Below, piece after piece: positions 5,023 through 50,900 of a DNA stretch of 64,000 nucleotides. The DNA comes from Prevotella sp. GTDB taxonomy: Bacteria > Bacteroidota > Bacteroidia > Bacteroidales > Bacteroidaceae. Position numbers and translations under genes: made by a program. The stretch spans positions 1 through 64,000 of the forward strand of contig JAFZIL010000036.1 in the NCBI GenBank assembly GCA_017554385.1, in the 5' to 3' direction. Every line of letters begins with the position of its first letter. Positions within the stretch are counted from its first letter, which is position 1. A model generated the notes under the pieces. The model was given only the letters and a program-made list of their open reading frames with translations. It had not been told where the DNA came from and searched no databases.

Positions 5023-5085
5023 CTCATGGGGCCTATGAGTCCAATGAGCCCAATAGGGCAAATGGGGCAAATGAGTCCCATGAGA
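5023..5085. repeat. Array of seven 9-base units inside a 12-base inverted repeat
   Basis: The gap between tonB and the next gene is filled by consecutive nonamers: CTCATGGGG, CCTATGAGT, CCAATGAGC, CCAATAGGG, CAAATGGGG, CAAATGAGT, CCCATGAGA. The outermost words make a perfect inverted repeat, AAGTCTCATGGG (5019-5030) with CCCATGAGACTT (5077-5088). A second nonamer array of similar words lies at 28045-28089. Confidence 0.85.
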
Positions 5086-5108
5086 CTTCAACCTTACAAA
5101 ATCAAAGT

Positions 5109-6071
5109 ATGAACAGAAACTCATTCGGTATTATTATCGGATTTACCTTTATTTTAGGCTTGTTCCTCGCTTGTGGGAACAAGCCTAAAAATGGTCAAGC
5201 CGCCTACGACTACGAGGCAGCTGCCAGCTTCTTCACCGCTGACGAGAGCTTCTTCCCTATCCTTGACGAAGAGCTCGAGGTCTATCAGGCCCTGCATGCA
5301 CAGGGTGAGCTCCGTGCTGAGTACACCAGTCAGGAGGAAGCCATGAGGAAGCTAATGAACAACGAGACCTGGCTGGCTTTCACCACCCGCGATTTCACGG
5401 CAAAGGAGCTGCAGAACCTGAAGGACCGCAAGTTCCTGCCTCGCACCATCCCCATCGCTTACGACGGTCTGGCCATCATCGTCAACAACCAGAATCCCGA
5501 CACTATGATTACAGTCAAGGACTTCGCACGCATTCTCAGCGGCGAGGCACAGTTGTGGCGGGACATCTACCCCAACTCACGGCTCGACAGCATCGACGTG
5601 GTGTTCGACAATCCTAAGTCAAGCACCGTGCGCTACTGCGTCGACTCGATTCTGGGCGGTAAGCCTATCAACAGCCACAACATCGGTGCCGTGCTGAAGA
5701 GCAGCGAGGTTATCGACTATGTCGAAAACCACAAGAATGCCATCGGCATCATCGGTTCCAACTGGCTCAACGACAAGCGCGACACCACCAATGTCACCTT
5801 TAAGAAAGAAATCACCGTCATGAAGGTATCCAAACTCGATTCCGCTACCGTCTCGAACAGTTGGCGACCCTATCAGGGATACCTATATAATGGCAACTAC
5901 CCTCTCGTGCGCACTATCTATGCCTTGCTCAACGAGCCGCGCAGTGGTGTGCCATCGGGGTTTGCCCACTTCTGCCGACTGCCCAAGGGCCAGCTCATCA
6001 TCTTCAAGGCCGGCCTGCTGCCCATACAGGGTAATATCAACGTCAGGGAAGTAACTGTCAGCGAAGAATAA
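5109..6071 (+). CDS. PstS-like substrate-binding lipoprotein in the TonB operon
   Basis: A 320-residue lipoprotein: the signal ends in the lipobox LFLAC with Cys22. The mature part resembles the periplasmic phosphate-binding (PstS, PBP-like) fold, with a TFTTRDFTAKEL-like loop region, the segment IPIAYDGLAIIVNN and IGIIGSNWLND. No ABC transporter genes for phosphate lie nearby. This gene and the following TPR gene are commonly found after tonB in Bacteroidales, so a role linked to the TonB motor or periplasmic sensing is possible, not established. It starts after the nonamer repeat and is followed by an octamer repeat. Confidence 0.75.
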   Translation: MNRNSFGIIIGFTFILGLFLACGNKPKNGQAAYDYEAAASFFTADESFFPILDEELEVYQALHAQGELRAEYTSQEEAMRKLMNNETWLAFTTRDFTAKELQNLKDRKFLPRTIPIAYDGLAIIVNNQNPDTMITVKDFARILSGEAQLWRDIYPNSRLDSIDVVFDNPKSSTVRYCVDSILGGKPINSHNIGAVLKSSEVIDYVENHKNAIGIIGSNWLNDKRDTTNVTFKKEITVMKVSKLDSATVSNSWRPYQGYLYNGNYPLVRTIYALLNEPRSGVPSGFAHFCRLPKGQLIIFKAGLLPIQGNINVREVTVSEE

Positions 6072-6083
6072 ACCTTTTTGAGC

Positions 6084-6185: not shown

Positions 6186-7616
6186 ATGAAAGCAATTAAA
6201 TATCTATTCATTGGAGCCCTGATGCTCAGCGTCTGCGCTCCCGTTGTCGCTCAGGACAACAAGGCCGCCATTGACGAAGCTGCACAGCTCGTCAAGTCGA
6301 AGGCCGATGCAAAGGAAATCAAGTCGTTCGCAAAGAAGTACAAGAAGAACGGCGAAGTGCTCACAGGACTGGCACGTGCCTTCTACGAGCAGCAGGATAC
6401 TGCCAACGCCCGTATCTATGCCGAGCAGGCTACTACCCTGAAGTATGCACCTGCCTACGTGCTCCTTGGTGACATTGCCGCTCTCGCCGATGACGGTGGC
6501 CTGGCCGGACAAATGTATCAGCAGGCCATGTATTTCGACCCGAAGCTTCCCGAGGCCTACACCAAGTATGCCACGATGTACAGCAAGATCGACCCTGCCG
6601 GTGCCATCCAGAAGCTCGAGGATCTGCGTGTCAACGTGCCCGACTATCCTGTCGACCTGCCTATGGCCCGACTCTATACCAAGGCAAATAAGATGGACGA
6701 GGCAATGGCTGCCTACGACCGCTGGTACACCACCACCGACTACTCTAAGAAAGAGCCGGGCGATGTGGCTGGCTACGCACTCATCCACCACATGAAGAAG
6801 AACTACGACAAGAGCATGCAGATCATCAACGAGGCATCTCAGAAGTATCCGCGCAGCTCCTCTATCAACCGTATCGGCTTGATGAACACCATCGCACAGC
6901 AGAAGTTTGAAGAGGCACTCGTTTGGGGCGACCGTCTGTTCAATAAGAGTGACTCAGCCAACTTCAACGACTTCGACTACACCAACTACGCTCAGGCACA
7001 TATCGGTGTGGGCAAGTACGACGAGGCCATCAATCTCTACCGCAAGGGTATGGAGGTCAGTAAGGCCGACCAGGACGCTGTGAACAACCTGCGCAAGGAG
7101 ATTTCTGACGCCTACATGCAGAAGGGCGACTTCGATCAGGCTGTGGCAGAGTATCGCCTCTACCTCGAGGGCACCACGAAGAAGACTGCCAGCGACTACA
7201 GTACGCTCGCTGAGATGTACTACAAGCACGCTGCCGACCTGCAGGGCGAGGAGCAGATGAACGCCATCCGCGAGGCCGACAAGATCTATGCCGATGTCGA
7301 GGAGAAATTCGCCAACAATACCGACGTGCTCGCCTACGTGCTCAACCGTCGCGGTACGCTCAACGTGATTCTCGATCCCGACAGCAAGCAGGGACTGGCC
7401 AAGCCCGTCTTCGAGAAGCTTATGCAGCTCATGGAGGGTAAGGAGAACCGTACCGATGCCGACAACAAGAAGCTTGTCACCAGCTATCGCTACATGATGT
7501 CCTACGACCTGCTCGTGCAGGACAACAAGCAGGCTGCACGTGACTGGGCTCAGAAGATTCTGACCGTCGATCCTGAGAACGAACAGGCCAAGCAGGTGAT
7601 TGAGAATATCAAGTAA
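6186..7616 (+). CDS. Secreted tetratricopeptide-repeat protein
   Basis: A 476-residue protein with a cleavable signal peptide (about residues 1-23, ending APVVAQ). The rest is made of helical TPR-like repeats rich in Ala/Tyr/Asp; examples are the stretches starting ARAFYEQQDTANARIYAEQA, FNDFDYTNYAQAHIGVGKYD and EYRLYLEGTTKKTASDYSTL. It is the last gene of the ExbB-ExbD-ExbD-TonB-PstS-like operon and is followed by a good terminator. TPR proteins are protein-interaction scaffolds; here it probably works in the periplasm with the TonB machinery, which is inferred from position only. Confidence 0.85.
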   Translation: MKAIKYLFIGALMLSVCAPVVAQDNKAAIDEAAQLVKSKADAKEIKSFAKKYKKNGEVLTGLARAFYEQQDTANARIYAEQATTLKYAPAYVLLGDIAALADDGGLAGQMYQQAMYFDPKLPEAYTKYATMYSKIDPAGAIQKLEDLRVNVPDYPVDLPMARLYTKANKMDEAMAAYDRWYTTTDYSKKEPGDVAGYALIHHMKKNYDKSMQIINEASQKYPRSSSINRIGLMNTIAQQKFEEALVWGDRLFNKSDSANFNDFDYTNYAQAHIGVGKYDEAINLYRKGMEVSKADQDAVNNLRKEISDAYMQKGDFDQAVAEYRLYLEGTTKKTASDYSTLAEMYYKHAADLQGEEQMNAIREADKIYADVEEKFANNTDVLAYVLNRRGTLNVILDPDSKQGLAKPVFEKLMQLMEGKENRTDADNKKLVTSYRYMMSYDLLVQDNKQAARDWAQKILTVDPENEQAKQVIENIK

Positions 7617-9308: not shown

Positions 9309-9312
9309 GCCC

Positions 9313-9347
9313 GATTGTCAATTATCCATTATCAATTGTCAGTTCTG
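9313..9347. repeat. Heptamer array between gltX and waaA
   Basis: Five consecutive 7-base units, GATTGTC, AATTATC, CATTATC, AATTGTC and AGTTCTG, fill almost the whole 40-base gap. Confidence 0.7.
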
Positions 9348-9348
9348 A

Positions 9349-13034: not shown

Positions 13035-13040
13035 TGTTGT

Positions 13041-13203
13041 AATTTACAATTTAACAATTTACCATTTACTATTTATTTTCCGATTTAGCAATTTGGCAAT
13101 TTATTCTTTGCGACAGACAAACCCGTTATCAACCAAAAACAAATTGATTAATAATCCAATTGGCCAATCAATCGTAAATTGTAAATTGTCAAATTGTAAA
13201 TAG
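13041..13203. repeat. AT-rich heptamer element with inverted arms
   Basis: The left arm (13041-13103) is built of 7-base words such as AATTTAC, AATTTAA, CAATTTA and CCATTTA. The right arm (about 13174-13203) carries inverted words such as GTAAATT, GTAAATT and GTCAAATT. A related element fills the gap between the RND permease and adaptor genes at 17961-18099. No gene is visible. Confidence 0.8.
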
Positions 13204-13205
13204 AT

Positions 13206-14624: not shown

Positions 14625-14698
14625 ATTATATAGTTCAGTTTGTTGTTTAACAATGTAACCAACCTCCCCTCCCTTGGGGAGGGGTCAGGGGTGGGCTT
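14558..14698. repeat. G/C-rich palindrome pair between RND permease and channel genes
   Basis: Positions 14558-14590 and 14661-14698 are inverted copies of the palindrome seen at the left window edge, about 70 bases apart. One copy abuts the permease stop codon and the other lies inside the signal-peptide codons of the channel gene. In the mRNA the two could pair into a long hairpin across the start of the channel gene. Confidence 0.85.
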
Positions 14699-17600
14699 TA
14701 TTTCTGTAAATCGTATTCCACCGGTCTCTTCGCATACTGTTGCAACTCTGTGGCCACATCGGGATTCTCGTCGTCGCCCTCGAACTTCATCGGACGGAAC
14801 TTCTCCTGGAGGCTCTGGAAGATGACGAACAGGCCGGGTACGACGAGCACCTGCAACAAGGTACCAATCAACATACCTCCAACAGCGGCAGCACCCAGCG
14901 TCTGGTTACCGTTCTTGCCGACGCCCGAGGCGAACATCATGGGCAACAGACCGACAATCATGGCGAGCGATGTCATGAGGATAGGACGCAGACGGGCAGC
15001 AGCACCGAGGATGGCCGACCACGAGATGGCCATACCCGTCTCACGGCGTTCGAGTGCGAACTGCACAATCAGAATGGCGTTCTTGGCCAACAGACCGATC
15101 AGCATGATCAGTGAGATCTGCATGTAGATGTCGTTGGCATGGCCGAACAGCATCGTGAACAAGAAGGCGCCTGCAAGTCCGAAGGGCACCGAGAGCACCA
15201 CAGCCAACGGCAGGATGTAGGACTCGTACTGTGCCGACAGGATGAGATAGATGAAGATGAAGCAAAGCAATAAGATCACGGCGGTCGAGTTGCTTGCCTT
15301 TGCCTCCTGACGGGTCAGGCCCTGGAAGTCGTAGGTGTAGCCCGTAGGCAGCATGGTGGATGCCACCTCCTGAACAGCCTTGATAGCTTCACCCGTAGAG
15401 TAGCCGCTGGCTACGGTAGCGGTGACGGTAATCGAGGTGAACATGTTGAAACGCGTGATGTTCGTCGGTCCGTAGACGCGGTCTACGTTGCAGAACTCCA
15501 GCACAGGCGACATGCCCTTAGGCGTGCGTACATATATATTATTAAGAGACTCCTTTGTCATGCGGGTCTCAGGTGCGCCCTGGATCATCACGCGGTAGAG
15601 CTTACCGTAGGAGTTGAAGTTCGATGCATACAGACCACCATAGTAACCCTGCAGGGTGCTCAGCACGGTCGACGGCGAGATGCCGCTCTGCTTACACTTC
15701 GCCACGTCGACGTGGATCATGTACTGCGGATAGTTCGGGTTGTACGAGGTCTGGGCCATCTGGATCTCCGGTCGCTTGTTCAACTCGGCCAGATAGTCCT
15801 TCGTGATGTTGAAGAACTTCGTCAGTTCGCCACCTGTACGGTCCTGCATGACAAGCGACACACCGCTGTTGGCCGAGAAACCGGGCACCATTGGCGGTGA
15901 GAAGGCCAGTATCGAGGCATCCTTGATATGAGCCGTCTTGATGAAGATCTGTGCAGCCACCATCTGGGCATCCATCGGATTGATTAGGAAACGGTAGATG
16001 CCGTCGCCTTCCCACAGTCCGCTAATCTTCCACCATAGTCCCTTCTGGCGCTCCGAGAACGGCTTCAGCTTCAGGATGAACGTTGCCTGGTCGGAACCGG
16101 CACCGGCGATGAAGTTGTAACCCTGAATCTGCTCACGGCTCTGGATGGCCGGATCGGCAGCAAGGATGGAGTCTACCTGGTTGATGATCTGACGTGTGCG
16201 AGCCACTGACGTTGCAGGAGGCATCGAGACAGTACAGAACACGGTACCCGTATCTTCATCAGGCACAAGACCCGTCTTCGTAAACGAGAAGGTAGCAACG
16301 AGCGCTACGATACCCAGAATCACCGTTGTAAGCACGGGGATAGGCCTGCGAACCAGCTTTTCGACATTGCCTTTGTATTTGCCCAGGATCTTGTCGTATG
16401 CCACGTTGAATGCGGCATGGAAGCGGTCAATGCGCGACATCTTCACCTCATGTCCGTCCTTATCATGCGGTTTCAGGAAGATGGCACAGAGGGCAGGCGA
16501 CAGCGTCAGGGCGTTCAGCGCCGAGATGAAGATGGCCACTGCCATCGTCACACCGAACTCACGATAGAACGTACCCGTCATGCCACCGATGAACGACACG
16601 GGGATGAACACCGAGGCCATCACCAGGGTAATGGAGATGATGGCACCCGAGATCTCGTTCATGGCATCGATCGAAGCGGTGAGCGACGACTTGTAGCCCT
16701 GATCCAGCTTGGCATGCACGGCCTCAACCACCACGATGGCATCATCGACCACAATGGCAATAGCCAGCAGCAGGGCCGACAGCGTCAGCAAGTTGATGGA
16801 GAAGCCGAAGACGCTCAGGAAGAAGAACGTACCAATCAGCGACACCGGCACGGCAATGAGCGGGATGAGCGTAGAACGCCAGTCCTGCAGGAAGACATAG
16901 ATGACGATGAACACCAGCAACAGGGTGAACACCAGCGTGAACACCACCTCCTCGATAGAAGCATAGAGGAACTCGGTGACGTCGTAGTTGATCTTATACA
17001 TCATGCCCGGCGGGAACAGCTTGGCCTGCTCCTTCAGCTCGGCCTTCACCTGCTTGGCAATCTCGTTGGCGTTAGAGCCGGCAATCTGCTGCACCATACC
17101 CATGACCGACGGGATGTTATTATTCTTCATCGACACAGAGTATTGCAGACCGCCCAGTTCAATCTTAGCCACGTCCTTCAGCTTCAGCGTCTGGCCGTTG
17201 GCATCGCTCGAGATGATGATATTGCCAAACTCTTCGGCAGTCTTCAGACGACCCGTGTAGCGCATGGCATACTCGTAGGCCACGTTGCTACGCTCACCAA
17301 ACGTACCCGGTGCTGCCTCGATGTTCTGTTCAGCCAGCACGCCGCTGATGTCAGAGGGCATGAGGTTGTACTGCTTCATCACGTCGGGCTTCAGCCAGAT
17401 GCGCATGGAGTAGGTCTTCACACCAGGGCTCTGCACGTCGCCCACGCCCTGGATACGTTTCACGGCAGGGATAATGTTGATGTTGTTGTAGTTCGTCAGG
17501 AACTCGTCGTCGTAACGACCATCCGAGGTCAGGGTGAACATCATCACCTGCGAGGTCTGACGCTTCATCACGGTCACACCGATACGCGTCACTTCGGCGG

Positions 17601-17955
17601 GCAGCAAGGCCTGTGCCTGTTGGACACGGTTCTGCACGTTCACAGCACACATGTCGGCATTCAGTCCCTGACGGAACATGATAGAAATGCTGGCCGAACC
17701 CGATGAGGCCGTCGAACTCATATAGTCCATGCCTTCCACACCGTTGATACTCTCCTCAAGAGGTGCAAGCACGGAGTTCTTCACCGTCTCGGCATCAGCA
17801 CCGGGATAGCTGGTATAGACCACTACGGTAGGCGGTGCAATGTCCGGATACTGCTCAATAGGCAGTGTAGCCAGTCCGATGAAACCCAGCAAGACGATGA
17901 GGATTGAGATCACCGTCGACAACACTGGGCGTTTTATGAATGTTGTAAAAGTCAT
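14698..17955 (-). CDS. RND efflux permease (HAE-1 / AcrB family)
   Basis: The 1085-residue inner-membrane pump of a tripartite efflux system uses proton-motive force. It has the standard RND layout of twelve membrane helices and two large periplasmic loops. The N-terminus is FIKRPVLSTVISILIVLLG, and the proton-relay aspartate pair is in LLAIAIVVDDAIVVVEAV. The second half shows LTRQEAKASNSTAVILLL and LIMLIGLLAKNAILIVQFAL, the hallmark of the HAE-1 group. It lies between the adaptor gene (18104-19273) and the outer-membrane channel gene, with repeat elements in both gaps. Export of hydrophobic drugs or bile salts is the family norm; the specific substrate is unknown. Confidence 0.96.
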   Translation of the reverse strand: MTFTTFIKRPVLSTVISILIVLLGFIGLATLPIEQYPDIAPPTVVVYTSYPGADAETVKNSVLAPLEESINGVEGMDYMSSTASSGSASISIMFRQGLNADMCAVNVQNRVQQAQALLPAEVTRIGVTVMKRQTSQVMMFTLTSDGRYDDEFLTNYNNINIIPAVKRIQGVGDVQSPGVKTYSMRIWLKPDVMKQYNLMPSDISGVLAEQNIEAAPGTFGERSNVAYEYAMRYTGRLKTAEEFGNIIISSDANGQTLKLKDVAKIELGGLQYSVSMKNNNIPSVMGMVQQIAGSNANEIAKQVKAELKEQAKLFPPGMMYKINYDVTEFLYASIEEVVFTLVFTLLLVFIVIYVFLQDWRSTLIPLIAVPVSLIGTFFFLSVFGFSINLLTLSALLLAIAIVVDDAIVVVEAVHAKLDQGYKSSLTASIDAMNEISGAIISITLVMASVFIPVSFIGGMTGTFYREFGVTMAVAIFISALNALTLSPALCAIFLKPHDKDGHEVKMSRIDRFHAAFNVAYDKILGKYKGNVEKLVRRPIPVLTTVILGIVALVATFSFTKTGLVPDEDTGTVFCTVSMPPATSVARTRQIINQVDSILAADPAIQSREQIQGYNFIAGAGSDQATFILKLKPFSERQKGLWWKISGLWEGDGIYRFLINPMDAQMVAAQIFIKTAHIKDASILAFSPPMVPGFSANSGVSLVMQDRTGGELTKFFNITKDYLAELNKRPEIQMAQTSYNPNYPQYMIHVDVAKCKQSGISPSTVLSTLQGYYGGLYASNFNSYGKLYRVMIQGAPETRMTKESLNNIYVRTPKGMSPVLEFCNVDRVYGPTNITRFNMFTSITVTATVASGYSTGEAIKAVQEVASTMLPTGYTYDFQGLTRQEAKASNSTAVILLLCFIFIYLILSAQYESYILPLAVVLSVPFGLAGAFLFTMLFGHANDIYMQISLIMLIGLLAKNAILIVQFALERRETGMAISWSAILGAAARLRPILMTSLAMIVGLLPMMFASGVGKNGNQTLGAAAVGGMLIGTLLQVLVVPGLFVIFQSLQEKFRPMKFEGDDENPDVATELQQYAKRPVEYDLQK

Positions 17956-17960
17956 TGGGA

Positions 17961-18099
17961 TTTACTATTTGACAATTTACTATTTACTATTTATTTCCAC
18001 ATTTTTACGATTTAACAGCGACTGTCCGATTCACAATAAATTGCCAAATAATCAAATTGCCAAATAAATTGTAAATTGTAAATCGCAAAATCGTAAATG
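17961..18099. repeat. AT-rich heptamer element with inverted arms
   Basis: The left arm (from about 17961) has words such as TTTACTA, TTTGACA and ATTTACT. The right arm (to about 18099) carries inverted AAATTGT and AAATCGC words. The element is similar to the one at 13041-13203 and fills the adaptor-permease gap of the efflux operon. No gene is visible. Confidence 0.8.
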
Positions 18100-18103: not shown

Positions 18104-19273
18104 CTATTTTTTCATCGCATTGACAATGTCTCCGGCACTCATGGCCTTGGCCTGTTCCTGGATCTTTTGCTGGTAACGCTCAGGAGTGATGGGAACAATC
18201 TCCATCTGGTCAGAGAGCTTGGTGATGCCGTTGGTCACATACTTATCGCCAACCTGCAGGCCACCTGTCACGATGTAGTTGTTGCCGTCGTTCTGCGGGT
18301 CGACGGTAATCTCGGTGTATTTCACCTTATTGTCCTTGCCCAGTACATAGACGAACTTCTTGTTCTGCACTTCCATCACGCAGGATTGGGGAATGACGAT
18401 GGCCGATGAATTGTCGTGGGGAATGACGATGGCACCAGAGCCACCACTCTTCAGCAGTCGCTCAGGATTGGGGAACACGGCAATCATCTGCACCGTACCC
18501 GTAGCCTGGTCGATGACACCGCTCATCTTGGCCACCTTGCCATCGTGCCCGTAGATGGTACCGTCGGCCAGCTGCAGTTTCACGTCGGGCAGCGTGTTCA
18601 GACCGTTGCCACTCTTCGACATCTCCAGTGCATCCTTCTCGTTCATTGAGAAGTAGACTTCCATTGACGAGTTGTTCGACACGGTTGTCAGCACCGAGGC
18701 AGCGCTCACCAGCGCTCCGACCTTCAGGGGAAGTGTGCCGACCACACCGGCAGACGGACTCTTCACATAGCAGAAACTCAACATCTCCTTGGCATTGGCC
18801 AGTGAGGCCTGGGCCTGAGCAAGTGCAGCCTTGGCACTCTCATACGAGTTCTGGGCTGTCTGCAACTCATAGTCGCCCACCACCTTATTCTGATGCAGCT
18901 GCTGGGTGTTCTCGAATGTCAGCTTGGCGGTGTTCACCGAGGCCTGCGCCGTGTTCACGGCTGCCTGGGCCTGTCGCACCGTAGCCTGATAGGTGGCGTT
19001 GTCAATCTCAAAAAGTACCTGTCCGGCACTTACCGTCTGACCTTCCTTTACGAAGATTCTTGTGATGAAGCCACCCACCTTCGGGCTGATCTGTACGTCC
19101 TGTACACCTTTGATAGTAGCAGGATAAGTGGTCTGCATGGCGGCACTCGACGTTCCCACAGTCACCACCGGGTACTCATTGTCGCCAAAGCTCGGGCGAC
19201 CGCCACCGCTCTTACCGCACGAGGCAACGAGTAGTGCAGAGGCCGCAAAAAGCAAAATCTTACTCTTTTTCAT
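18104..19273 (-). CDS. RND efflux periplasmic adaptor lipoprotein (AcrA/MexA type)
   Basis: A 389-residue membrane-fusion protein linking the inner-membrane pump to the outer-membrane channel. The signal ends LLVASC, so it is anchored by lipid at Cys20. Domains in order: barrel-sandwich and lipoyl half-motifs (about 45-75 and 165-200), an alpha-hairpin with Ala/Gln-rich heptads (about 80-160), a beta-barrel (about 205-285) and a membrane-proximal domain to the end. It is the first gene of the three-gene efflux operon and has its own promoter, with an inverted repeat at the predicted transcript start. No regulator gene is adjacent. Confidence 0.93.
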   Translation of the reverse strand: MKKSKILLFAASALLVASCGKSGGGRPSFGDNEYPVVTVGTSSAAMQTTYPATIKGVQDVQISPKVGGFITRIFVKEGQTVSAGQVLFEIDNATYQATVRQAQAAVNTAQASVNTAKLTFENTQQLHQNKVVGDYELQTAQNSYESAKAALAQAQASLANAKEMLSFCYVKSPSAGVVGTLPLKVGALVSAASVLTTVSNNSSMEVYFSMNEKDALEMSKSGNGLNTLPDVKLQLADGTIYGHDGKVAKMSGVIDQATGTVQMIAVFPNPERLLKSGGSGAIVIPHDNSSAIVIPQSCVMEVQNKKFVYVLGKDNKVKYTEITVDPQNDGNNYIVTGGLQVGDKYVTNGITKLSDQMEIVPITPERYQQKIQEQAKAMSAGDIVNAMKK

Positions 19274-19462: not shown

Positions 19463-20893
19463 TTACAATGCGTTGAGCAGTTTTGTCTTGCCATCGTTGA
19501 TGAGCTTCAGCACCAGTTCACCGAAGAGCGTGTTCTGCCAAGCGAACCAAGGACGGGTGAACTTCGACGCGTCATCTTTGTGAAATGCCTCGTGCATAAA
19601 GCCCGTGCCGGCATCGGTCTGCATGAGCATACGCATGCAGAGGCGTATCTCGTCATCGCTCTGGGCCGTGAAGCATTTCATCATAATGCTCATGGGCCAA
19701 ACCATATCATAGCCGACATGCGGGCCACCGATGCCCTCGCCGGCCTTTCCACGGAAGAACCAGGGATTGTCCTCACTCCAGACAAAGCGGCGTGTGTTCT
19801 GGTAGACAGGGTCGTTCATCGGCACATCGCCCAGATAGCCCATCGCTAAGAGTGACGGCACATTGGCATCGTCCATCAGCAGGTAGTTTCCGAAACCGTC
19901 GACTTCGAAGGCATAGATCTTTCCGTATTTGGGATGCTCCACCACAGCATGCTCGTGTAGCGCCTGTTCCACCTCATCGGCCAGCATGGTGCATGATTGC
20001 GCGAGGTCGGTGCGCCGGTTCACCTTTGTCAGAATTTCAGCTGCCTTGCGCAACGAACTGACAGCCATGAAGTTCGAGGGGACGAGAAACGGCAGTATGG
20101 TGGCATCGTCACTGGGACGAAATGCTGATGCAATCAATCCGATGGGACGGACGGGTGCCCCATAGCCGTCCCAGCCCATAGTATCGAAAGCGCGGTCGGT
20201 CTTGCGCAGAAAGCGATAAGGACCTCGGTTCTCCTTGCGTTGCTGTTCGCGGAAGATTCTCAGGATGTTGTCTATGGCCTGTAGCCACTGTTCGCCAAAG
20301 ACGGTGTCGTCACCCGTCACTTTCCAGTATTCGTAGGCCAGGCGTATCGGGTAGCATTCTGAGTCTATCTCATACTTCCTTTCGTGGAGTTCAGGTTTCA
20401 TCTCGGTCTTGTCCGTCTGCCACCCACCACCCGTCGCTCCGTCATTGAAGGCGTTGGCATAGGGGTCTATGTTGATACACTTCCACTGGCGCAGAATGAC
20501 TCCACGTAGCATTTTCTTTAGCTGCGGATCTTCATTGGCAAACTGAACGTATGGCCACACTTGAGCTCCCGAGTCGCGTAGCCACATGGCATGGATGTCG
20601 CCCGTATAGACGAAGGTGTCGTCCTCACCGTCAACATGACGATAGTGAACAGTAGTCTCTAACGTGTTGGGGAAGCAGTTCTCGAACATCCACGCCAGCT
20701 TAGGATTGTCTTTTAGCAGATGCTTCACTTCCTCTATCTTCTTATCGATGACCTCCGAGCGGAACAGCCGGTCCTCCACCTTTGGCCGTCTCGATTCCTG
20801 CGCATTTAAAGGTAAAAGGGTAAAAAGGTAAAATAGTAAAATCCATTTTGCCTTGACACCTATCTTGTTATATGTCATCATTGCTTGTCTCAT
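19463..20893 (-). CDS. Glycoside hydrolase family 125 (exo-alpha-1,6-mannosidase type)
   Basis: A 476-residue protein of the GH125 (former DUF1237) family, whose characterised members remove alpha-1,6-linked mannose with inversion. A signal peptide occupies residues 1-32, and its core is encoded by an octamer repeat. The (alpha/alpha)6 fold is indicated by YTGDIHAMWLRDSGAQVWPY, YEIDSECYPIRLAYEYWKVTG, MGWDGYGAPVRPIG and DAGTGFMHEAFHKDD. It starts 19 bases after the end of the GH92 gene, so the two mannosidases were probably one operon for degrading N-glycan or yeast-type mannan. Confidence 0.93.
   Translation of the reverse strand: MRQAMMTYNKIGVKAKWILLFYLFTLLPLNAQESRRPKVEDRLFRSEVIDKKIEEVKHLLKDNPKLAWMFENCFPNTLETTVHYRHVDGEDDTFVYTGDIHAMWLRDSGAQVWPYVQFANEDPQLKKMLRGVILRQWKCINIDPYANAFNDGATGGGWQTDKTEMKPELHERKYEIDSECYPIRLAYEYWKVTGDDTVFGEQWLQAIDNILRIFREQQRKENRGPYRFLRKTDRAFDTMGWDGYGAPVRPIGLIASAFRPSDDATILPFLVPSNFMAVSSLRKAAEILTKVNRRTDLAQSCTMLADEVEQALHEHAVVEHPKYGKIYAFEVDGFGNYLLMDDANVPSLLAMGYLGDVPMNDPVYQNTRRFVWSEDNPWFFRGKAGEGIGGPHVGYDMVWPMSIMMKCFTAQSDDEIRLCMRMLMQTDAGTGFMHEAFHKDDASKFTRPWFAWQNTLFGELVLKLINDGKTKLLNAL
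20808..20847. repeat. Octamer array inside the GH125 signal peptide
   Basis: Octamers AAAGGTAA, AAGGGTAA, AAAGGTAA, AATAGTAA and AATCCATT follow one another. Read in the gene's frame they encode signal-peptide residues 16-29, the hydrophobic core LLFYLFTLLPL. Confidence 0.8.
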
Positions 20894-22325: not shown

Positions 22326-25300
22326 CTATTCCTCCCACTTACGGTCGGCTTCGGCCAACGTTCCACGGAAGTCCCAGCCTGTCTGTTCGGCTTTAAGGTT
22401 GGCCTTGGCCCCCTCTATGCTGACAGCCGATAGTCCCACACGCACCAACAGTGGCTGGTCGCCCCCTGCGAAGCGCAATACCGTGGTGGGGTGCTGAGAA
22501 TGGATAAGCATTGACCCGCTTTCCATTGTCAATTGTTCTACAGGACGGGAGAACTCTGCCACAAAGAACACCTTTTGGTTGTTAGCCCATCCTTTGGAAT
22601 AGCGGTAGCCTGTGATAACGGTTGGACTCTCCTGACGGGCCTCGCACTCTGTCATCTTGTCCCAGCCGATGCCTTGCTCCAGATCGAGCCGCAGATAGCC
22701 TACAGAAGCGTCAGCCGGTAAGGTGTAGCGATGCATGCCCGTTCGTTCTGTAGCAGTCAACTCCACACGGATGCCGTTGTTGAGCATCACGGAGTAATAT
22801 CCCGGACGCACGTACTCAGCCTGATGAGAGAACATCACGCTCTTCTGTTCTGCATCGAGTACCGGCAGGAAGGCGATGTCACCCAGGTCGGCACACCCCG
22901 TGCCGCTGAGATGCAGATGGCCGAAGCCTATTATCACGGAGTCGCTGTAGTGATAGCCCGAACACCAGTCCCACCCATCCTTACGGTTCGTAGGTCCTAA
23001 CTGTACGAAGCCGAAAGGCACGTTGGCACCGAGGAACACGTGACCGTGGTCACCAGTGCCTATAAGGGGATTGACATATTTAGTGTGAGTCAAGGGCGAT
23101 TGGGCATTTTGCATTGAGCATTCTTGCTTTTGCAAACGTCCCTGTGGGCCGAGCGCTGCATGGCAAACAAGGCGGACAAAGACGGGATAATGATCGGAGG
23201 GCAGGCGCCGCTGGTCGGCCCAATAGGTGTTGGTCAGCACACCGTAACGGTCTACATTGAACTGTGGCGAAACGAACACATGGTCGATGCGGCTGTTCGT
23301 TTTCCGCTCCTGATGGAAGGCGTTGAACGTACCGTTCTCGGCAAAGCGCAGACGTGCCTCGGTGTAGCAGTCAAGCAGATGCCCCGTCTGAGTGAAGATG
23401 GAGTATATCTCATCATTCTGGTCGACGTTGAAGTCGCCTGTCAGCACAACAGGATAGCCCTCTTCCGTCTTCTTGCCTATCCGTTCCAACACCAGCTTGG
23501 CAGCCTCTCGCCGCGCTACGACACCTTCGTGGTCCATGTGCAGGTTGAAGAAACAGAACTGCAAGCCCGTCATGCAGTCCTCGAACAATCCCCAGGTACA
23601 GATGCGGATGCAGGCAGCATCCCAGCCAAAGCTGGGCTTGTCGGGTGTCTGTGAGAGCCAGAAGTGTCCGCTGTCCACGAGGCGCAACTTTTTCTTGTCG
23701 TAGAAGATGGCGGCATACTCGCCTTTCTGCTTGCCGTCCTCGCGTCCCACGCCAACATAGTCGTAGCTATCGAGACGAACCAGCATGTCGCGCAATTGCG
23801 GTTCCAGCACCTCCTGCGCTCCAAATACGTCGGGGTGCTCGAAGTTCAGTTGGTCACACACCACTGGACAACGCTGTTTCCAATCGTCACCTTGTTCGGT
23901 ATCTTCGGTATTGATATATCTGATATTATATGAACCCACATAGAGGTTCTGGGCACTTGCCGACAGCGTGAGTAGCAAGAACCATATAAGGAAAGAGGCG
24001 AGTCCCATCTTACGGGCCTTCTCGAAAAGCAATTTCATAAGAGGTTCGCGCTCGTTCTCGACACGGTTGTCGAGTACTGCATCCTTAAGATACTGCTTGA
24101 GCGTGCCCACCTCGCGACTGGGTTTAAGATGGAAGAGCTGCATGATCTCGTTGCCGTCGATGACGGGCTGTAACAGTCGCTTGTAGTCTTTCTCCTTGAG
24201 GTCGGCCAGTTTCTCGCGTACCATGCGGAAGTTCTCGAGGAACATTTTCTTTTTCACCTCGTTCTTCGAGGTGATATCGGCCTCGCAGAGCGTCATCAAG
24301 TCATCGATGTCATCACCAGCATCGTTAAGCAGTCGGCGCACCGCACTGTCGGTGACCTCTTCGTCGGCAATGGCCTGTGGCCGCATGTGGAGCTCCACGA
24401 GCTTCTCCACGTACTTCATCTCGGCGCCCATGGGCAACTTGAGCCGACGGAATATCTGTGGCACCATCTTCGCACCTATGTAGTTATGGTTGTGGAACGT
24501 CCATCCAGTCCCAGGCTCCCACCGCTTGGTCTTGGTCTTCCCGATGTCATGGAGTAGTGCGGCCCACCTTAAATATAATGAGGAATGAGGAATGAGGAAT
24601 GAGGAATGGGCAGCGTCATCGGCATTTGTAATATCTTCATTTTCATTTCTCATTTCTAATTTCTCATTACTCATTTTGACAATATTCTCCAGGACCTCGA
24701 GCGTATGATAGAAGTTGTTCTTGTGAGCCCGCCCGTCACGCTGTTCCACGATGTCGAGTGCTGCCAGCTCAGGCAGGATGAGCTGTAGCAGTCCGGAACG
24801 CTGTAGGTCGACGAAGCCTTTGCTGGGATGGGGCGACATGATGATCTTGTTCAGCTCGACCATGATACGCTCGCCGCTCACTATCTTGATGCGCTGGGCC
24901 ATGCGCTCCAACCCCTCGAAGGTCTCATCCTCAATCTGGAAGTTCAGCTGTGTGGCAAAGCGTATACAGCGCATCATACGCAGGGGATCGTCGCTGAAGG
25001 TGATGTCAGGATCGAGAGGCGTGGCAATGATACCGTCCTCAAGGTCAGCAAGTCCGTTAAAGGGGTCGACCAGTTCACCGAAGCGTTCATGGTTCAGACA
25101 GATGGCCATGGCGTTGATGGTGAAGTCGCGCCGGTTCTGGTCGTCCTCAAGCGTACCATCCTCCACGATGGGCTTGCGCGAGTCGTGACTGTAACTCTCA
25201 CGACGCGCTCCAACAAACTCCACCTCAAGGGGATAGTGAAGAGTGAAAAGTGAAGAATTTGCTGCCGCCGTTCCAACAGGCGAAGGAATGGCGGTAGCAA

Positions 25301-25598
25301 ATTCTTCACTTTTCACTTTTCCTTTTTCCCTTATACAGACCTGCGCCGTACCGAAATTCTTGAACACGGAGAGGTGGGCTTGGCGGCCTAAGCGACGCTT
25401 CAGCTCCTTTGCCACCTCAATACCACTGCCCACGACGACGACATCTATATCGTTGGAGGGACGCTCAAGAAAGATGTCACGCACGTAACCGCCCACCACA
25501 TAGCACTCTACGCCTAAGTGGTCGGCAGCGTCACTGATTTGATGGAAAATATCCTGGTCGAGTATCTCGGCCAGTTCTTCGTCGGAGTATAGTTTCAT
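22326..25598 (-). CDS. cca: Fused reading frame: tRNA nucleotidyltransferase + EEP domain + GH92 N-terminus
   Basis: One uninterrupted frame of 1090 codons from the ATG at 25598 joins three enzymes. Residues 1 to about 531 are a CCA-adding enzyme: GGYVRDIFLERPSNDIDVVVV (nucleotidyltransferase), RRDFTINAMA, and an HD domain with AALLHDIGKT. Next, from Met at 24008, comes a secreted endonuclease/exonuclease/phosphatase domain, then the N-terminal beta-sandwich of GH92 up to the TAG. Relatives normally encode these separately, and the cca part seems about 50 residues long because of two repeat insertions (24577-24678 and 25243-25316). The frame is open to 25703, but MKLYSDEELAE at 25598 is the family start. 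Internal initiation at 24008 is plausible because it begins a signal peptide. Confidence 0.8.
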   Translation of the reverse strand: MKLYSDEELAEILDQDIFHQISDAADHLGVECYVVGGYVRDIFLERPSNDIDVVVVGSGIEVAKELKRRLGRQAHLSVFKNFGTAQVCIREKGKVKSEEFATAIPSPVGTAAANSSLFTLHYPLEVEFVGARRESYSHDSRKPIVEDGTLEDDQNRRDFTINAMAICLNHERFGELVDPFNGLADLEDGIIATPLDPDITFSDDPLRMMRCIRFATQLNFQIEDETFEGLERMAQRIKIVSGERIMVELNKIIMSPHPSKGFVDLQRSGLLQLILPELAALDIVEQRDGRAHKNNFYHTLEVLENIVKMSNEKLEMRNENEDITNADDAAHSSFLIPHSSLYLRWAALLHDIGKTKTKRWEPGTGWTFHNHNYIGAKMVPQIFRRLKLPMGAEMKYVEKLVELHMRPQAIADEEVTDSAVRRLLNDAGDDIDDLMTLCEADITSKNEVKKKMFLENFRMVREKLADLKEKDYKRLLQPVIDGNEIMQLFHLKPSREVGTLKQYLKDAVLDNRVENEREPLMKLLFEKARKMGLASFLIWFLLLTLSASAQNLYVGSYNIRYINTEDTEQGDDWKQRCPVVCDQLNFEHPDVFGAQEVLEPQLRDMLVRLDSYDYVGVGREDGKQKGEYAAIFYDKKKLRLVDSGHFWLSQTPDKPSFGWDAACIRICTWGLFEDCMTGLQFCFFNLHMDHEGVVARREAAKLVLERIGKKTEEGYPVVLTGDFNVDQNDEIYSIFTQTGHLLDCYTEARLRFAENGTFNAFHQERKTNSRIDHVFVSPQFNVDRYGVLTNTYWADQRRLPSDHYPVFVRLVCHAALGPQGRLQKQECSMQNAQSPLTHTKYVNPLIGTGDHGHVFLGANVPFGFVQLGPTNRKDGWDWCSGYHYSDSVIIGFGHLHLSGTGCADLGDIAFLPVLDAEQKSVMFSHQAEYVRPGYYSVMLNNGIRVELTATERTGMHRYTLPADASVGYLRLDLEQGIGWDKMTECEARQESPTVITGYRYSKGWANNQKVFFVAEFSRPVEQLTMESGSMLIHSQHPTTVLRFAGGDQPLLVRVGLSAVSIEGAKANLKAEQTGWDFRGTLAEADRKWEE
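23115..24008 (-). other. Secreted endonuclease/exonuclease/phosphatase domain within the fused frame
   Basis: From the ATG at 24008 the frame encodes a signal peptide (MGLASFLIWFLLLTLSASAQ) and then an EEP-fold hydrolase of about 270 residues. It shows VGSYNIRYINTED, FGAQEV, FNLHMDHEGV, LTGDFNVDQND, RIDHVFVSPQF and the closing SDHYPVFVRLV, which together supply the metal-binding and catalytic His/Asp/Asn set. In Bacteroidales such secreted EEP proteins often sit beside mannosidases, as here. No stop codon separates it from cca upstream or GH92 downstream. The short linker to GH92 (about 23112-23150) contains AATGCTCAATGC-type repeat words. Confidence 0.75.
24577..24678. repeat. Heptamer element inside the cca frame
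   Basis: Four perfect AATGAGG units and one AATGGGC (24577-24611) face an inverted arm of CATTTCT, CATTTCT, AATTTCT, CATTACT and CATTTTG (24644-24678). The whole element is translated in frame within the HD-domain region of cca, just before the LLHDIGK metal-binding motif. Confidence 0.85.
25243..25316. repeat. 32-base inverted repeat inside the cca frame
   Basis: Arms 25243-25274 and 25285-25316 are inverted with the outer 21 bases identical and only a few mismatches further in, around a 10-base loop. The arms contain GTGAAAAGTGAAGA words. It is translated as an insert ending SSLFTLHYPLE between the two nucleotidyltransferase motifs of cca. Confidence 0.85.
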
Positions 25599-25622
25599 GC
25601 TTTTGTTCCTGATTTTTAGGTG

Positions 25623-25630
25623 CAAAGTTA
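25623..25630 (-). promoter_or_regulatory. Promoter -7 element for cca
   Basis: TAACTTTG on the - strand matches TAnnTTTG and lies 24 bases before the cca ATG at 25598. It is back to back with the promoter of the + strand lipoprotein gene. Confidence 0.6.
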
Positions 25631-25726
25631 CGAAAAAGAAGTGAAACGTGAATGGTGAAGAGCAAAGATTTTTGCTCCAGCCAATAAAAATATGCATTAG
25701 CATGACTTCTTATGCATAATTATTTG

Positions 25727-29044: not shown

Positions 29045-29639
29045 CGTTTGTAATGCGCAGACTTTTACCCAGCGGCTGCAAAAGCAGGCGAAGGGCGAAG
29101 GCATTGTCACGCTGCATCAGGACAAGACCATTGACGAGCTGGTCAACGGGCCTAAAGCCATCTCCGTGCCACAGCCCACTACAGTAAAGCCTACCATCAA
29201 GAAAGACATTAGTCACCTCAAGACACCTGCTGTAACGCCAGTAACCAAGAAGAAAGAAGAAAAGCCCGCCGCAGTGCCTACAGTCGCAAAACCGCGACAG
29301 AACGACACGCTCGTCACAGTGGCTCCCCCCATTCAGACAACCGTCGACTCGACACTTGTCAAGCCCAAGCGCACCTATCGCACCACTGGCTATCGCGTGC
29401 AGGTGTTCGCTGGTGGCAACTCCCGTCAAGACCGCCAGCGGGCTGAGCAGATAGGCAATCAGCTCAGGTCGCTCTTCCCCGAGCATCAGGTCTACGTACA
29501 TTTCTTCTCGCCCCGATGGATATGCCGCATCGGCAACTTCAAGGAGTACGATGAGGCCGTAAAGATGAAGGGCGAGCTGAAGCAGATGGGCTACGGATCG
29601 ACCACTATCGTCAAGGGAAAAATCACCCTACCCCTTTAA
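28914..29639 (+). CDS. SPOR domain protein, exported
   Basis: A 241-residue protein with a C-terminal SPOR domain (about residues 160-235, with YRVQVFAGGNSRQDRQRAEQ and FFSPRWICRIGNFKEYDEA), which binds denuded peptidoglycan glycan strands at division sites or elsewhere. A Lys/Pro-rich linker spans about 70-155. The ATG at 28914 is followed by a charged stretch and a hydrophobic core at about 29-46 encoded by CATTTCT repeats, then a probable cleavage site after CNAQ. Later ATGs at 28926 and 28932 are also possible starts. folE begins nine bases after the stop. Confidence 0.85.
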   Translation: MKYSMNMKKMRKRNEACLTEQRQGLARPFLIFAFAFLISHFSFLVCNAQTFTQRLQKQAKGEGIVTLHQDKTIDELVNGPKAISVPQPTTVKPTIKKDISHLKTPAVTPVTKKKEEKPAAVPTVAKPRQNDTLVTVAPPIQTTVDSTLVKPKRTYRTTGYRVQVFAGGNSRQDRQRAEQIGNQLRSLFPEHQVYVHFFSPRWICRIGNFKEYDEAVKMKGELKQMGYGSTTIVKGKITLPL

Positions 29640-30272: not shown

Positions 30273-30276
30273 CCCC

Positions 30277-30304
30277 CATTCTCCACTTTCCACCTTTAAC
30301 CCTC
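30277..30304. repeat. Heptamer array after folE
   Basis: Units CATTCTC, CACTTTC, CACCTTT and AACCCTC lie in the 37-base gap between folE and the next gene. Confidence 0.6.
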
Positions 30305-47968: not shown

Positions 47969-47993
47969 TTTCTTTTGTTTTGGTTTCATAAAG

Positions 47994-50900
47994 TTATTGA
48001 TTATTTGATTTTAAATATTTGTATAATATTTCTATCGGATGGACAGCCCTAACGCCTGTGCCGTCAAGGATCTGCTGTCGGCATGAAGTTCCTGGTGCAA
48101 CAATGAAAGTTGAGGTTTGAGATTTGAGACTTGAGATTTGAGAAACCTTTCTGATTTCAGGGAAAAGCACCATCTCACCAATGGCCAACGAGGTCTTGTA
48201 ATGCTCCTTCTCATAGCCGAAGGAACCTGCCATACCGCAACAGCCACTGGGAATCACGTTTACCTTAGCGTTAAGCAGTTGGCGTAGTACCTCTGCCATT
48301 ACCTCTACTCCTACCAACGCCTTCTGATGGCAATGACCGTGCAGGAAAATCTCAATGGATGCCTGTTCGAAGCTATCGCGTTTAATACGTCCTGCCTTAA
48401 TCTCACGAAGCAAGAATTCGTCGAACAACAGGCTATGCCTACCTAATTCTTTTGCATCATTTCGCAGTTCTGCAGGCACCAAGTCAGGATATTCGTCACG
48501 GAAGGAGAGGATGCACGAAGGTTCAAGACCAACAAGGCTGAGGGAGGAGGAAGGAGGAAGGAGGGAGAAGAGGCGTTTGACATTCTCTTCAGCGATATGT
48601 TTGGCGCGTTTCAGGCAGCCTTTGGAGATGGCAGCGCGACCGCTTTCCAAGAGATCAGGTATTTCCACCTGATAGCCCAACGAATTTAGCAGTCCTATGA
48701 AATGCTCTGCCAGTTCCGGTTCATGATGACGGGTAAACTCATCGAGGAACAGCAAAACAGACCCCACCCCGGCCCCACCCCTTGGATGGGAGATGAGTGT
48801 CGTAAGAGGTTTCATCTTTTGAAGTCTCGGTAGTTCTCTTTCTTCCGCAAACCCGATGACCTTTTTGATAAGTAGCGACGTGGGCTTCCATGTGACCATG
48901 AAGTTATAGAGTGGTCGTACATACTGTCCGATGGCTTCCATCTGTGCAGTCCTGGCAACCAACCATGAGCGCAGTGGCGTTCCATGCTGGTCGTAGTAAT
49001 GCTGTAGCAGTTCAGCTCTCAGTCGGGTCATGTCTACATTCGACGGACATTCACTCTTGCATCCTTTGCAGGCCAGACAGGAGTCAAGGACCTCCTTAAT
49101 AAGTGAAAAGTGAAGAGTGAAAAGTGAAGAGTGAAAAGTGAAAAGTGAAGAGTGAAGAGTGAAAAGTGAAGAATGAAGAGTGAACAGTGAAGAGTGAAGA
49201 GAGAAGAGTGAAGAATCACCACCGCGAGTGAGGACTTCGCGCAGTACATTGGCACGGGCACGGGTGGTCTTGAGTTCGTCGCGACTCACCTTATATGCAG
49301 GACACATCGTGCCACCAATAAGATTGCTTTTCCTGCAATCACCAGCACCATTACATTGTTCGATGGTACACATCAAGGCATGCGTCTGCGACTTGGCACC
49401 TGTAGCCCCAGGCGCATCACACTCGTCAAAAGCTGCTTTCCAATTAAAGTAGGTTTTATCTGTTCCGATAATCTTTTCCACAGCATACTGCTGATCTTCC
49501 TCGAATCGCAGCATCGAGTCCATCGGCAGCGTGTCTACAATCTTATGACGGTTCAACAGTCCGTCGGGGTCCCAGCACCGCTTCACCTGCCGCATCAGCT
49601 CGTAAGCCTCATCGCCATAGAGTAACGGGATAAACTCACCGCGCAACCTACCGTCACCATGTTCACCGCTGATGCTGCCTCGGTGTTTCTTTACCAACAG
49701 AGCTGTTTCGTGAGCAAGTGTGCGGAACAATGCCCTACCCTCTTTCGTCTTCAGATTGATGATCGGACGCAGGTGCAGTTCACCCGTGCTGATATGGCCG
49801 TAGAAGACGCATTTTGCACCGAGCCGGTCTAACAGCTGTCTGAAGTCCTTCATATACGCTGGCAGACGAGACGGTGCCACTGCCGTATCTTCAATCACGC
49901 CCATCGGCTTCGCGTCGCCCTTCATGCCACCAAGGATGCCAAGCCCTGCCTTGCGCAGGTTCCACACCTTGGCAACATCGGCTCCATAGACGCGGGTACA
50001 TCTATATATTAGTCCGCTGTTGAGCAAGTCCTGCTCCAAAGCGTCAGCCATGCTGTCAAGTTCTTCTCGTGTCTCAGCCCTTAACTCCGTTATGAGCAGT
50101 GCTGCAGGGTCGCCCTCTACGAAGAATCGGTTCTTCTGTTGTTCGACATTGCCCTTACTCAATTGCAGAATGTCACCATCCATCAGTTCAATGGCTGTTG
50201 GCTGATGTTTCAGTGCCACAAGATTTCCTTCGAAACTCTTCTCTAACGCATCGCAATGCCCACACACCACCATAATCTCCTTCGGTGGTAACACGTCGAG
50301 GCTCACCGTAATCTCTGTGATGAACGCCAGTGTTCCCTCACTACCAGCCAACAGCTTACAGAGGTTAATACTCCCCTCGCCCTTTGGAGAGGGGTTGGGG
50401 ATGAGGCTTTCTATCACTTCATCAATGGCATAGCCGCAACTTCTTCTTTGTAATTCCTTGTCAGGATAGTGCTCGGCAATGAGTCTCGTCGTCTTTTCAT
50501 CGAGGGCAAAGCGTATGAGCTGGGCGTAAATCTTTTCGATGAGTGATTCGTGATTCGCGCGAGCTGGCACAGGGCCTGCCCCTACACTCGCGTCGTGGCC
50601 TTCCCCTACATTTTCCCAGAACCTCTCGCCAAACCTCTCCTCTAATTCTTCAATTCTATAATTCTTAAATTCTTCAACGCTTCCATCGGCAAGCAGGCCT
50701 TTTGCAGCAATCACATGATGCCTCGTACTGCCATAGACGAGTGAGTGGGTGCCGCAGCTATTGTTGCCAAACATTCCTCCGATACAGCAACGGTTGCTCG
50801 TCGATGTCTCTGGACTGAAGAACAGGCCGTAAGGCTTCAAGGCAATGTTCAGCTCATCGCGAACCACGCCCGGCTGCACCCTCGCCCAACGTTCCTCAGC

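Follow-up and report, generated by a model that had tools for sequence, protein, structure and literature searches.

What kind of process places short tandem arrays of 7-, 8- or 9-nt units at many separate sites of a Prevotella genome is the question raised by the first 64,000 bases of contig JAFZIL010000036.1 of Prevotella sp. (assembly GCA_017554385.1), a stretch that we refer to as the window (bases 1-64000 of contig C32 in a genome of 3.06 Mb, 98 contigs and 81.3% completeness). Arrays were detected by a lag self-match score with a threshold of 24. The window contains 16 arrays of lag 7, 8 or 9 at this threshold, compared with a mean of 0.03 and a maximum of 1 in 60 dinucleotide shuffles, so that the excess over composition-matched sequence expected in the original prediction was borne out; the other lags gave no arrays (4, 5, 10 and 13), one each (6 and 11) or two (12). 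Twelve of the 14 sites listed in that prediction score at least 24, whereas 9313-9347 is borderline (23) and 30277-30304 is indistinguishable from chance (13). The reading that we favor, with a probability of about one half, is that ready-made short repeat cassettes are inserted or exchanged and are later changed unit by unit.

Arrays of this kind are also present in relatives of the window's genome and are not confined to this contig. A first set of 80 loci of other genomes (1,462,859 bases from Prevotella, Prevotellaceae, Xylanibacter, uncultured Bacteroidales and one uncultured bacterium, many of them ruminant-derived) was gathered by a scan with the CCA-adding enzyme of the window. It contained 189 arrays at lag 7, 34 at lag 8 and 52 at lag 9, with none at lags 4, 5 and 13, eight at 6, three at 10, eight at 11 and thirteen at 12, and one block shuffle of these loci gave zero arrays at every lag. 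A second set of 40 further stretches (762,900 bases, 10 stretches being from the window's genome) is a replication without a shuffle, its genomes mostly being ones already sampled and picked among the more loaded ones; it gave 73, 20 and 24 arrays at lags 7, 8 and 9, one at 6, five at 10, four at 11, nine at 12 and none at 4, 5 and 13. Lags 7, 8 and 9 stand out in both sets, in line with the predicted process of narrow period range. Rows of G010 and G023, which runs of N inflate, were set aside, as were the rows for lags 6, 9 and 12 in one comparison whose baseline lacked the lags divisible by three.

Across the 80 loci the array load lies between 0 and 8 per 10 kb and shows a weak positive correlation with GC content (Spearman 0.30, p 0.006). 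In the named strain P. ruminicola KHT3, locus L217 has 5 arrays in 12 kb and other stretches (G073) have 2 in 80 kb; Prevotella sp. ne3005 has 3 arrays in 21 kb (L222) and Prevotella sp. tc2-28 has 0 in 21 kb (L189). A plasmid of Segatella hominis HDD12 carries 1 array in 6 kb and 0 in the adjoining 49 kb, and a Phocaeicola plasmid carries 2 in 6 kb. In an outgroup set of 27 loci from 14 genomes of other families of the order (411,802 bases), all 13 lag-7 arrays fall within one 20-kb stretch of one genome, L267, and lags 8 and 9 give one match each. The thirteen 7-mer arrays of that stretch (G059:C1:100000-119999) are built on ATCAACC, AAACACC and other units, and one flank, GGAATCAGTGTTCAATTTCC, recurs there; the other two samples of the same genome (L268 and L075) have no lag-7 arrays.

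The addition of arrays to a gene can be followed in ORF 22326-25703(-), which starts with the CCA-adding enzyme. In many genomes of the genus, matches to this enzyme break near query residues 129/159 and 345/375, which are the array positions, in two apparent loops that we designate as such from the alignment. In the codon alignment the loops are short in seven of eight outgroup rows (12-24 and 21 nt), the eighth row, L019, having a 99-nt loop 2 without a clear period of 7-9, and in many Prevotella they are filled by differing in-frame arrays. Arrays of period 7-9 occupy loop 1 in 22 and loop 2 in 31 of 107 genomes of the genus, and long loops of whatever kind are found in 45 and 63 of them, rows L017 and L024 each being incomplete at one loop. 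The exact units number 17 at loop 1 and 24 at loop 2, and parsimony requires 19 and 24 changes, compared with 21.2 and 29.8 for shuffled labels. As we read the alignment, L192 has the same arm-core-arm element at both loops and L147 has one core common to its two loops; L169 and L188 differ in loop 2 by 21 nt, that is, by three units. Despite these inserts, 118 of 121 orthologue rows form one uninterrupted frame without stops, the exceptions being L208 (stops) and L017 and L161 (two pieces). Judging by their titles, most of the genomes analyzed are metagenome-assembled genomes, for which an assembly or sequencing artefact comes to mind, but with array-bearing orthologues staying open, and with arrays in named strains (P. 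ruminicola KHT3, Prevotella sp. ne3005) and in the Segatella hominis HDD12 and Phocaeicola plasmids, this explanation is scarcely credible.

Two side observations concern the same gene. In ORF 22326-25703(-) one open frame runs from the CCA-adding enzyme through an endonuclease/exonuclease/phosphatase domain to a GH92 N-terminal domain; among the matches listed, most relatives have one of these parts per frame, and G032 joins the last two. In addition, G+C-rich inverted repeats (CCCCTCCC...GGGAGGGG, GCCCCCGAGGGGGC) form another class of in-frame insert; they occur in the CCA loops of L017, L149, L152, L153, L177, L187, L196, L205 and L221 and, within the window, at 50370-50402 and 50547-50600, where they encode the peptides NPSPKGEG and VGAGPVPARANH.

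Alignment of orthologous gaps, which the original prediction had proposed as a check, likewise revealed arrays that were gained, lost or altered between species. Both flanks placed 129 of 257 array clusters in at least one other locus, and 86 of the 129 have an empty-like ortholog (shorter by 20 nt or more and no longer than 35 nt), with flank identity reaching 85% or more in 10 of these cases. L164 and L187 (96-97% flank identity) carry unrelated arrays in one gap, L164 and L205 (94%) carry the same unit in different copy number, and L184 and L185 (99%) have one array in common, unchanged; L160, L192, L200, L220 and L226, from different species, have differing units at the same loop of the same gene, before KGIGFTMEGSEN. 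Inspection of the empty-site alignments by eye showed loop bases replaced and no clear target-site duplication of the kind that borders a MITE. Arrays are gained repeatedly in places that tolerate them: the gaps from one stop to the next start, signal peptides and, with the frame kept, loops of housekeeping proteins.

The placement of the arrays bears on the idea that they are retained as functional sites, either bound by a protein or an RNA, at translation starts for instance, or forming hairpins in mRNA. The 80 loci hold 329 arrays, with 117 in intergenic sequence, 81 across an ORF end and 131 inside simple ORF calls (102 of them internal, 24 close to the N terminus and 5 close to the C terminus), and as these calls cover 86.7% of the loci, arrays are enriched outside genes and at gene ends, although not confined there. 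Moreover, GCAAAGGTA lies within 24 nt 5' of the purine-rich strand in 22 of 366 7-mer arrays; it is the complement of the promoter-like TACCTTTGC box, which we take to resemble the Bacteroidetes -7 box. The two complete elements of the window that were folded as RNA gave -58.7 kcal/mol (z -12) for loop 1 and -21.4 kcal/mol (z -2.6) for loop 2, the other folded pieces, 28866-28966 and 13036-13120, holding part of their elements only and being uninformative. A role at translation starts has been proposed for the TAACTGA repeats of Beggiatoaceae (PMC4679880). All this would suit functional sites, but orthologous gaps with unrelated units or none at 85-97% flank identity do not, and arrays in coding loops cannot act as start-site signals, which makes this alternative quite improbable.

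How arrays begin can be asked from the length of near-perfect forms. Lag-7 matched stretches of 7 to 13 nt number 92, 37, 8, 45, 13, 10 and 4, and the control lags 5, 10, 11 and 13 give 73-96, 21-35, 4-14, 22-45, 7-17, 2-7 and 1-3 for the same lengths, so two-copy forms (2-2.9 copies) are at or slightly above the control lags. Beyond them stands a separate group of 64 near-perfect arrays of 22-38 nt, with peaks at 25 (10 arrays) and 32 nt (11 arrays). Among all 7-mer arrays the length mode is 30-35 nt (104 of 228 in the first set and 36 of 88 in the second), and it persists in arrays without any GG or CC (74 of 157); 8-mers peak at 30-35 nt in the first set and unclearly in the second, and 9-mers peak near 25 nt.

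The borders and words of the arrays point in the same direction. Same-unit arrays whose flanks resembled each other were first taken out, which left 284 of 318. The start phase was then common to 200 same-unit pairs, compared with 88 in a simulation that includes chance extension (maximum 128 over 150 runs), and the end phase to 157 pairs, compared with 85 (maximum 115). The units differ between sites, as originally claimed, but identical units recur far above chance: random units of matched composition would give 2.9 identical-unit pairs among 55 arrays of G000 and 23 among 163 arrays of the 80 loci, whereas 36 and 278 such pairs were observed. There are 85 distinct 7-mer units in the 80 loci and many in the sampled G000. 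As to a local seed, the unit was present in the array-free orthologous window at a rate of 0.197 (76 cases), compared with 0.185 for permuted units, which is no excess. The small or absent excess of two-copy forms, the 25 and 32 nt peaks, the recurring units and the registered borders argue for ready-made cassettes rather than local slippage. A genome-specific dialect of units was considered separately and is real but modest, and for 7-mers in G000 it is no stronger than the pool of the 80 loci predicts.

In ordinary replication slippage, a chance duplication would grow by a polymerase slipping by about 7 nt, with inverted arms arising through template switching at quasi-palindromes; according to PMC4692102 and PMC4679880, Mrazek (2007) proposed such slippage for long simple sequence repeats in many bacteria. 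The excess of 7-nt repeats known in other bacteria, the whole-unit copy changes between relatives (L164/L205 and L169/L188), the concentration of variation in one unit position and a small two-copy excess under one of two baselines are all in its favor. The other baseline shows little or no two-copy excess over control lags and a gap before the array population, and slippage also has to contend with the lack of a local seed, the recurring words and registered ends, and the neighboring pairs described below (32 inverted, 1 direct). We consider slippage somewhat unlikely as the origin of the arrays. The length peaks at 4+7k, the fixed phase at both ends and a period that is independent of unit sequence (85 distinct 7-mers in 80 loci) would also suit a dedicated repeat-writing polymerase, which would copy 7-nt units on a short internal template with an alignment of about 4 nt, in a telomerase-like manner, the product being joined into breaks. 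However, some loaded genomes such as G060 and G062 have no RVT_1 match (genomes incomplete), and one template does not explain the many words per genome, which leaves this enzyme very unlikely.

Returning to the insertion of ready-made cassettes, the arrays are often arranged as inverted arms, as originally noted: among 42 neighboring 7-mer pairs within 200 bp in the first set, 32 are inverted, 1 is direct and 9 are neither, chance being about 5% for each of the first two. According to the list of pairs, half of the inverted ones (16 of 32) come from the loops of the CCA-adding enzyme gene, and in most inverted pairs the purine-rich arm is 5' of the core. The core GCGGTAGCAAATTCTTCA has 83 matches within two mismatches in the window's genome, against 0 for the reversed pattern, and 21 matches within three mismatches in 14 of the 80 other loci, against 1 for the reversed pattern. 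Of 44 listed rows around this core, which include some false matches, 10 have an upstream partner core (five elements, seen on both strands) and the rest are single. Other cores 3' of the purine-rich strand are ATGATTAC (16 of 366 arrays), TTGCTGCC (10) and TTGCTACC (8). Some arrays, as inverted pairs around recurring cores, are like a mobile palindromic element. The original statement that the arrays are not one transposed element therefore holds for the many units, but only in part, because units recur and some arrays sit on dispersed elements with a recurring core. Two further occurrences of the core were observed: at G000:C46:9591-9671 three copies of a core with a short array follow one another, spaced by 35 and 28 bp, and seven unannotated human-gut phage records (MT837435, MT838134, MT837047, MT835665, MT837731, MT839902 and MT838345) match a core-array query at 88-94% identity.

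Taken together, a cassette would hold a 7-nt word, or less often one of 8 or 9 nt, in about 3 to 5 copies, the words coming from a recurring set. The mobile piece would probably be the single cassette, sometimes with a core, and inverted pairs would result from two insertions or from fold-back copying. Once placed, arms would gain or lose whole units, only frame-keeping changes surviving in coding sequence. Cassettes would be kept where they are harmless, selection presumably clearing them except from gaps, loops and signal peptides.

Candidate enzymes were compared between higher-load and lower-load genomes. The Y1 transposase (PF01797) scored above the cut-off in 13 of 19 genomes with higher load and in 10 of 17 with lower load, SbcD (TIGR00619) in 5 of 19 and 3 of 17, and reverse transcriptase (PF00078) in 8 of 19 and 8 of 17; none of them tracks load, and G062, the most loaded genome of the second set, has no Y1 transposase match (genomes incomplete). 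These contrasts have weak power: the genomes are incomplete, and the initial ranking by load used about 20 kb of each, with some genomes ranking lower in the second set (0.25 arrays per 10 kb in G068 and in G073, 0.5 in G077). As a separate observation, SbcD exceeds the curated cut-off in 8 of these 36 incomplete Prevotella genomes, so many members of the genus may lack SbcCD, which cuts palindromes, or have a divergent form of it.

Several results weigh against the cassette explanation. With respect to mobility, neither a target-site duplication nor an integrase has been shown, the three enzymes do not track load in 36 genomes (weak contrasts), only 2 of 10 neighboring pairs are inverted in the second set (0 direct, 8 neither), and a mobile element is shown for some arrays and not for all, since the recurring core adjoins a minority. 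With respect to ready-made words, the 17 and 24 exact units at the CCA loops collapse to 5 and 6 classes when one-mismatch units are linked, and part of the unit sharing is common descent, because the 278 pairs include orthologous arrays of one region. The excess of one-mismatch unit pairs within a genome over that across genomes is modest (0.21 vs 0.11), and the 36 identical pairs of G000 compare with 40 expected from the pool of 80 loci. With respect to birth, the other baseline gave a small two-copy excess (lag 7, 90 vs 62; lag 8, 27 vs 18), in a test whose mask drops duplications of at least 10 nt and whose zero rows are artefacts; detection among imperfect arrays is biased toward longer ones; the species compared in the seed test have diverged, so that seeds altered by later mutation could go unnoticed; and the fixed border phase could arise partly from selection beside start codons and promoters. 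Finally, within-array variation is somewhat concentrated in one unit position (0.537 vs 0.419; p below 0.05 in 15 of 112 arrays), a pattern to be expected if slippage also spreads units once an array is in place.

The sites of the window are collected in Table 1. The original prediction had the arrays occupy many of the short intergenic gaps in the left half, and stop-to-start gaps are indeed filled, but six sites are in-frame inside protein ORFs: 24577-24675, 25235-25332, 48110-48143, 48540-48570, 49101-49214 and 50644-50683. Insertion relative to homologs is demonstrated for the first two and for 49101-49214. The pair in loop 1 (25235-25254, score 21, and 25305-25332, score 27) had been overlooked in that prediction. 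An Rfam scan of the window gave nothing above the gathering score. Tandem repeats of 22 bp were also observed in the window at 53379-53514 and 178-236 (TCCCAGGGGGTGGGACAATTCT; CGAGAACTATTCTCGTGGCAAG), and lag 22 is likewise raised in the 80 loci (36 arrays).

Table 1. Short-period tandem arrays in the window, with lag self-match scores.
Feature	Position	Strand	Score and context
9-mer array, ATGGGGCCT type	5026-5084	+	35; fills gap between ORFs 4178-5011 and 5109-6071
8-mer array ATAACGAA	6094-6154	+	46; gap between ORFs 5109-6071 and 6186-7616
Weak 7-mer array	9314-9344	+	23, borderline; gap 9309-9348
Inverted 7-mer pair, AATTTAC and TAAATTG arms	13041-13075 and 13170-13192		26 and 22; gap 13035-13205
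Inverted 7-mer pair	17969-17993 and 18065-18089		26 and 26; gap between ORF 14698-17955 (AcrB type) and ORF 18104-19273
8-mer array AAAGGTAA, sense TTACCTTT	20808-20842	-	34; in apparent signal peptide WILLFYLFTLLPLNAQ of ORF 19463-20893(-)
In-frame insert, loop 2 (HD domain) of CCA-adding enzyme, inverted 7-mer arms AATGAGG / TCATTTC	24577-24675	-	Arms 24577-24608 (50) and 24640-24675 (38), lag 7
In-frame insert, loop 1 (PolyA_pol head) of CCA-adding enzyme, 7-mer arms AGTGAAG	25235-25332	-	Core between arms TTTGCTGCCGCC...GGCGGTAGCAAA
9-mer array AGCCCCATT	28044-28078	.	37; spans end of ORF 26765-28063 and extends into gap preceding triosephosphate isomerase gene
Inverted 7-mer pair	28869-28900 and 29017-29048		30 and 40; 3' of triosephosphate isomerase gene
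Listed site, period 7, unsupported	30276-30296	+	13
In-frame 7-mer array	48110-48143	-	39; aa 1003-1014, near C terminus of FAD-oxidase/Fe-S protein
In-frame 7-mer array	48540-48570	-	33; about aa 860-870 of FAD-oxidase/Fe-S protein
In-frame 16-copy 7-mer array (AGTGAAG)	49101-49214	-	149; Fe-S domain, aa 646-683 of FAD-oxidase/Fe-S protein
In-frame 8-mer array	50644-50683	-	29; about aa 156-169 of FAD-oxidase/Fe-S protein

Four of these arrays lie in the gene of a FAD-oxidase/Fe-S protein, 47994-51149(-). Homologs in eight genomes of other families (G040, G041, G042, G044, G045, G047, G048 and G049) have no counterpart of the 16-copy array; their matches run to residue 642-649 and resume at 684-686, the two parts being 12-33 nt apart in the genome. 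At the other three arrays, homologs align from residue 3 to 161-180 and from 684 to about 1046 with no reported break; they align across most of the 50644-50683 array. Among 20 genomes of the same genus, G015 matches the C-terminal half at 48% and the rest match weakly or through repeats, and because same-genus matches are so scarce, the gene may have been acquired. It bears AGTGAAG, a unit common in the window's genome.

Arrays also contribute to signal peptides. The right arm of the 28869-29048 element encodes the apparent signal peptide of a SPOR-domain protein, and in a survey of best matches to this protein, which mixes orthologues and paralogues, a lag signal is found in this region in 18 of 53 loci, the window included, with 15 scoring at least 30 and with several units at lags 7 and 8. 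The 8-mer TTACCTTT encodes LPFYLFTFLPLNAQ-like peptides in the SPOR signal region and LLFYLFTLLPLNAQ in the unrelated ORF 19463-20893(-), and in G022 9-mers are located inside apparent lipoprotein signal peptides.

The dominance of 7-nt tandem repeats in many bacteria has been an open matter since 2007 (as cited in PMC4692102 and PMC4679880). Prevotella, in which single genes have gained arrays many times, the words are numerous and relatives offer empty sites, allows slippage to be separated from ready-made insertion. The arrays also represent a route to new protein segments, as repeat DNA fills loops of an essential enzyme and the cores of signal peptides. A broader and rather doubtful possibility is that of an undescribed machinery that would write repeats or insert cassettes in steps of 7 nt (sometimes 8 or 9), start and stop at a fixed phase, and place arrays wherever they are tolerated, essential genes included, singly or inverted with a core; it would be sporadic in Bacteroidales and might underlie the heptamer arrays of cyanobacteria, Xanthomonas and Beggiatoaceae.

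The original prediction knew of no description of such arrays for Prevotella-like genomes, and none was found in the open PMC literature, outside of which most subscription journals lie; TAACTGA arrays have, however, been reported in five Bacteroidetes, together with a Beggiatoaceae genome in which this heptamer occurs in sets of two to six copies (PMC4679880). Tandem repeats have also been surveyed by phylum (PMC4060949). The GGGAATC heptamers of Xanthomonas show a four-unit mode and convergent inverted pairs and were tied to G-quadruplexes (PMC4692102); the four-unit preference read there as a sign of G-quadruplexes is found here also in arrays without GG or CC. In general, the Prevotella arrays resemble the heptamer short tandemly repeated repetitive (STRR) sequences and long simple sequence repeats of Nostoc, Calothrix, Xanthomonas and Beggiatoaceae in their 7-nt unit, their sporadic distribution across taxa and their over-representation relative to shuffles. 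STRR sequences are mostly intergenic, whereas the Prevotella arrays, although enriched outside genes, are inside ORFs in 131 of 329 cases; reports on STRR sequences follow one or few words per genome, whereas Prevotella has dozens, plus 8- and 9-mers; and in-frame inserts in housekeeping genes, signal peptides and registered ends set the Prevotella arrays apart from those reports. In the P6b stem-loop of the Nostoc tRNA-Leu intron, a hairpin is built on the 7-nt motifs TDNGATT or NNTGAGT and changes by repeat units on either side of the stem (PMC4476775), but this is one locus with two words, in contrast to the many loci, genes and words of Prevotella.

Rickettsia palindromic elements (RPE) sit in-frame in metabolic genes (PMC10969869, PMC2996958), and the palindromic inserts of the CCA-adding enzyme gene are likewise kept in-frame. 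RPE are families of about 150 bp with a conserved peptide, whereas in Prevotella the arms consist of tandem 7-mers that differ widely in sequence and the cores are short, and units and peptides differ between species at the same CCA loop, so that there is no conserved peptide of the RPE type. Phase-variation contingency repeats vary in unit number between cells or strains and switch a gene; in Prevotella, species differ by whole units. Finally, REP/REPIN elements have a short dispersed core, single or as an inverted pair, and are associated with RAYT transposases. The dispersed short core of Prevotella is also found single or as an inverted pair, but in the weak contrasts above Y1_Tnp does not track load, and the arms, unlike those of REP/REPIN, are themselves tandem arrays.

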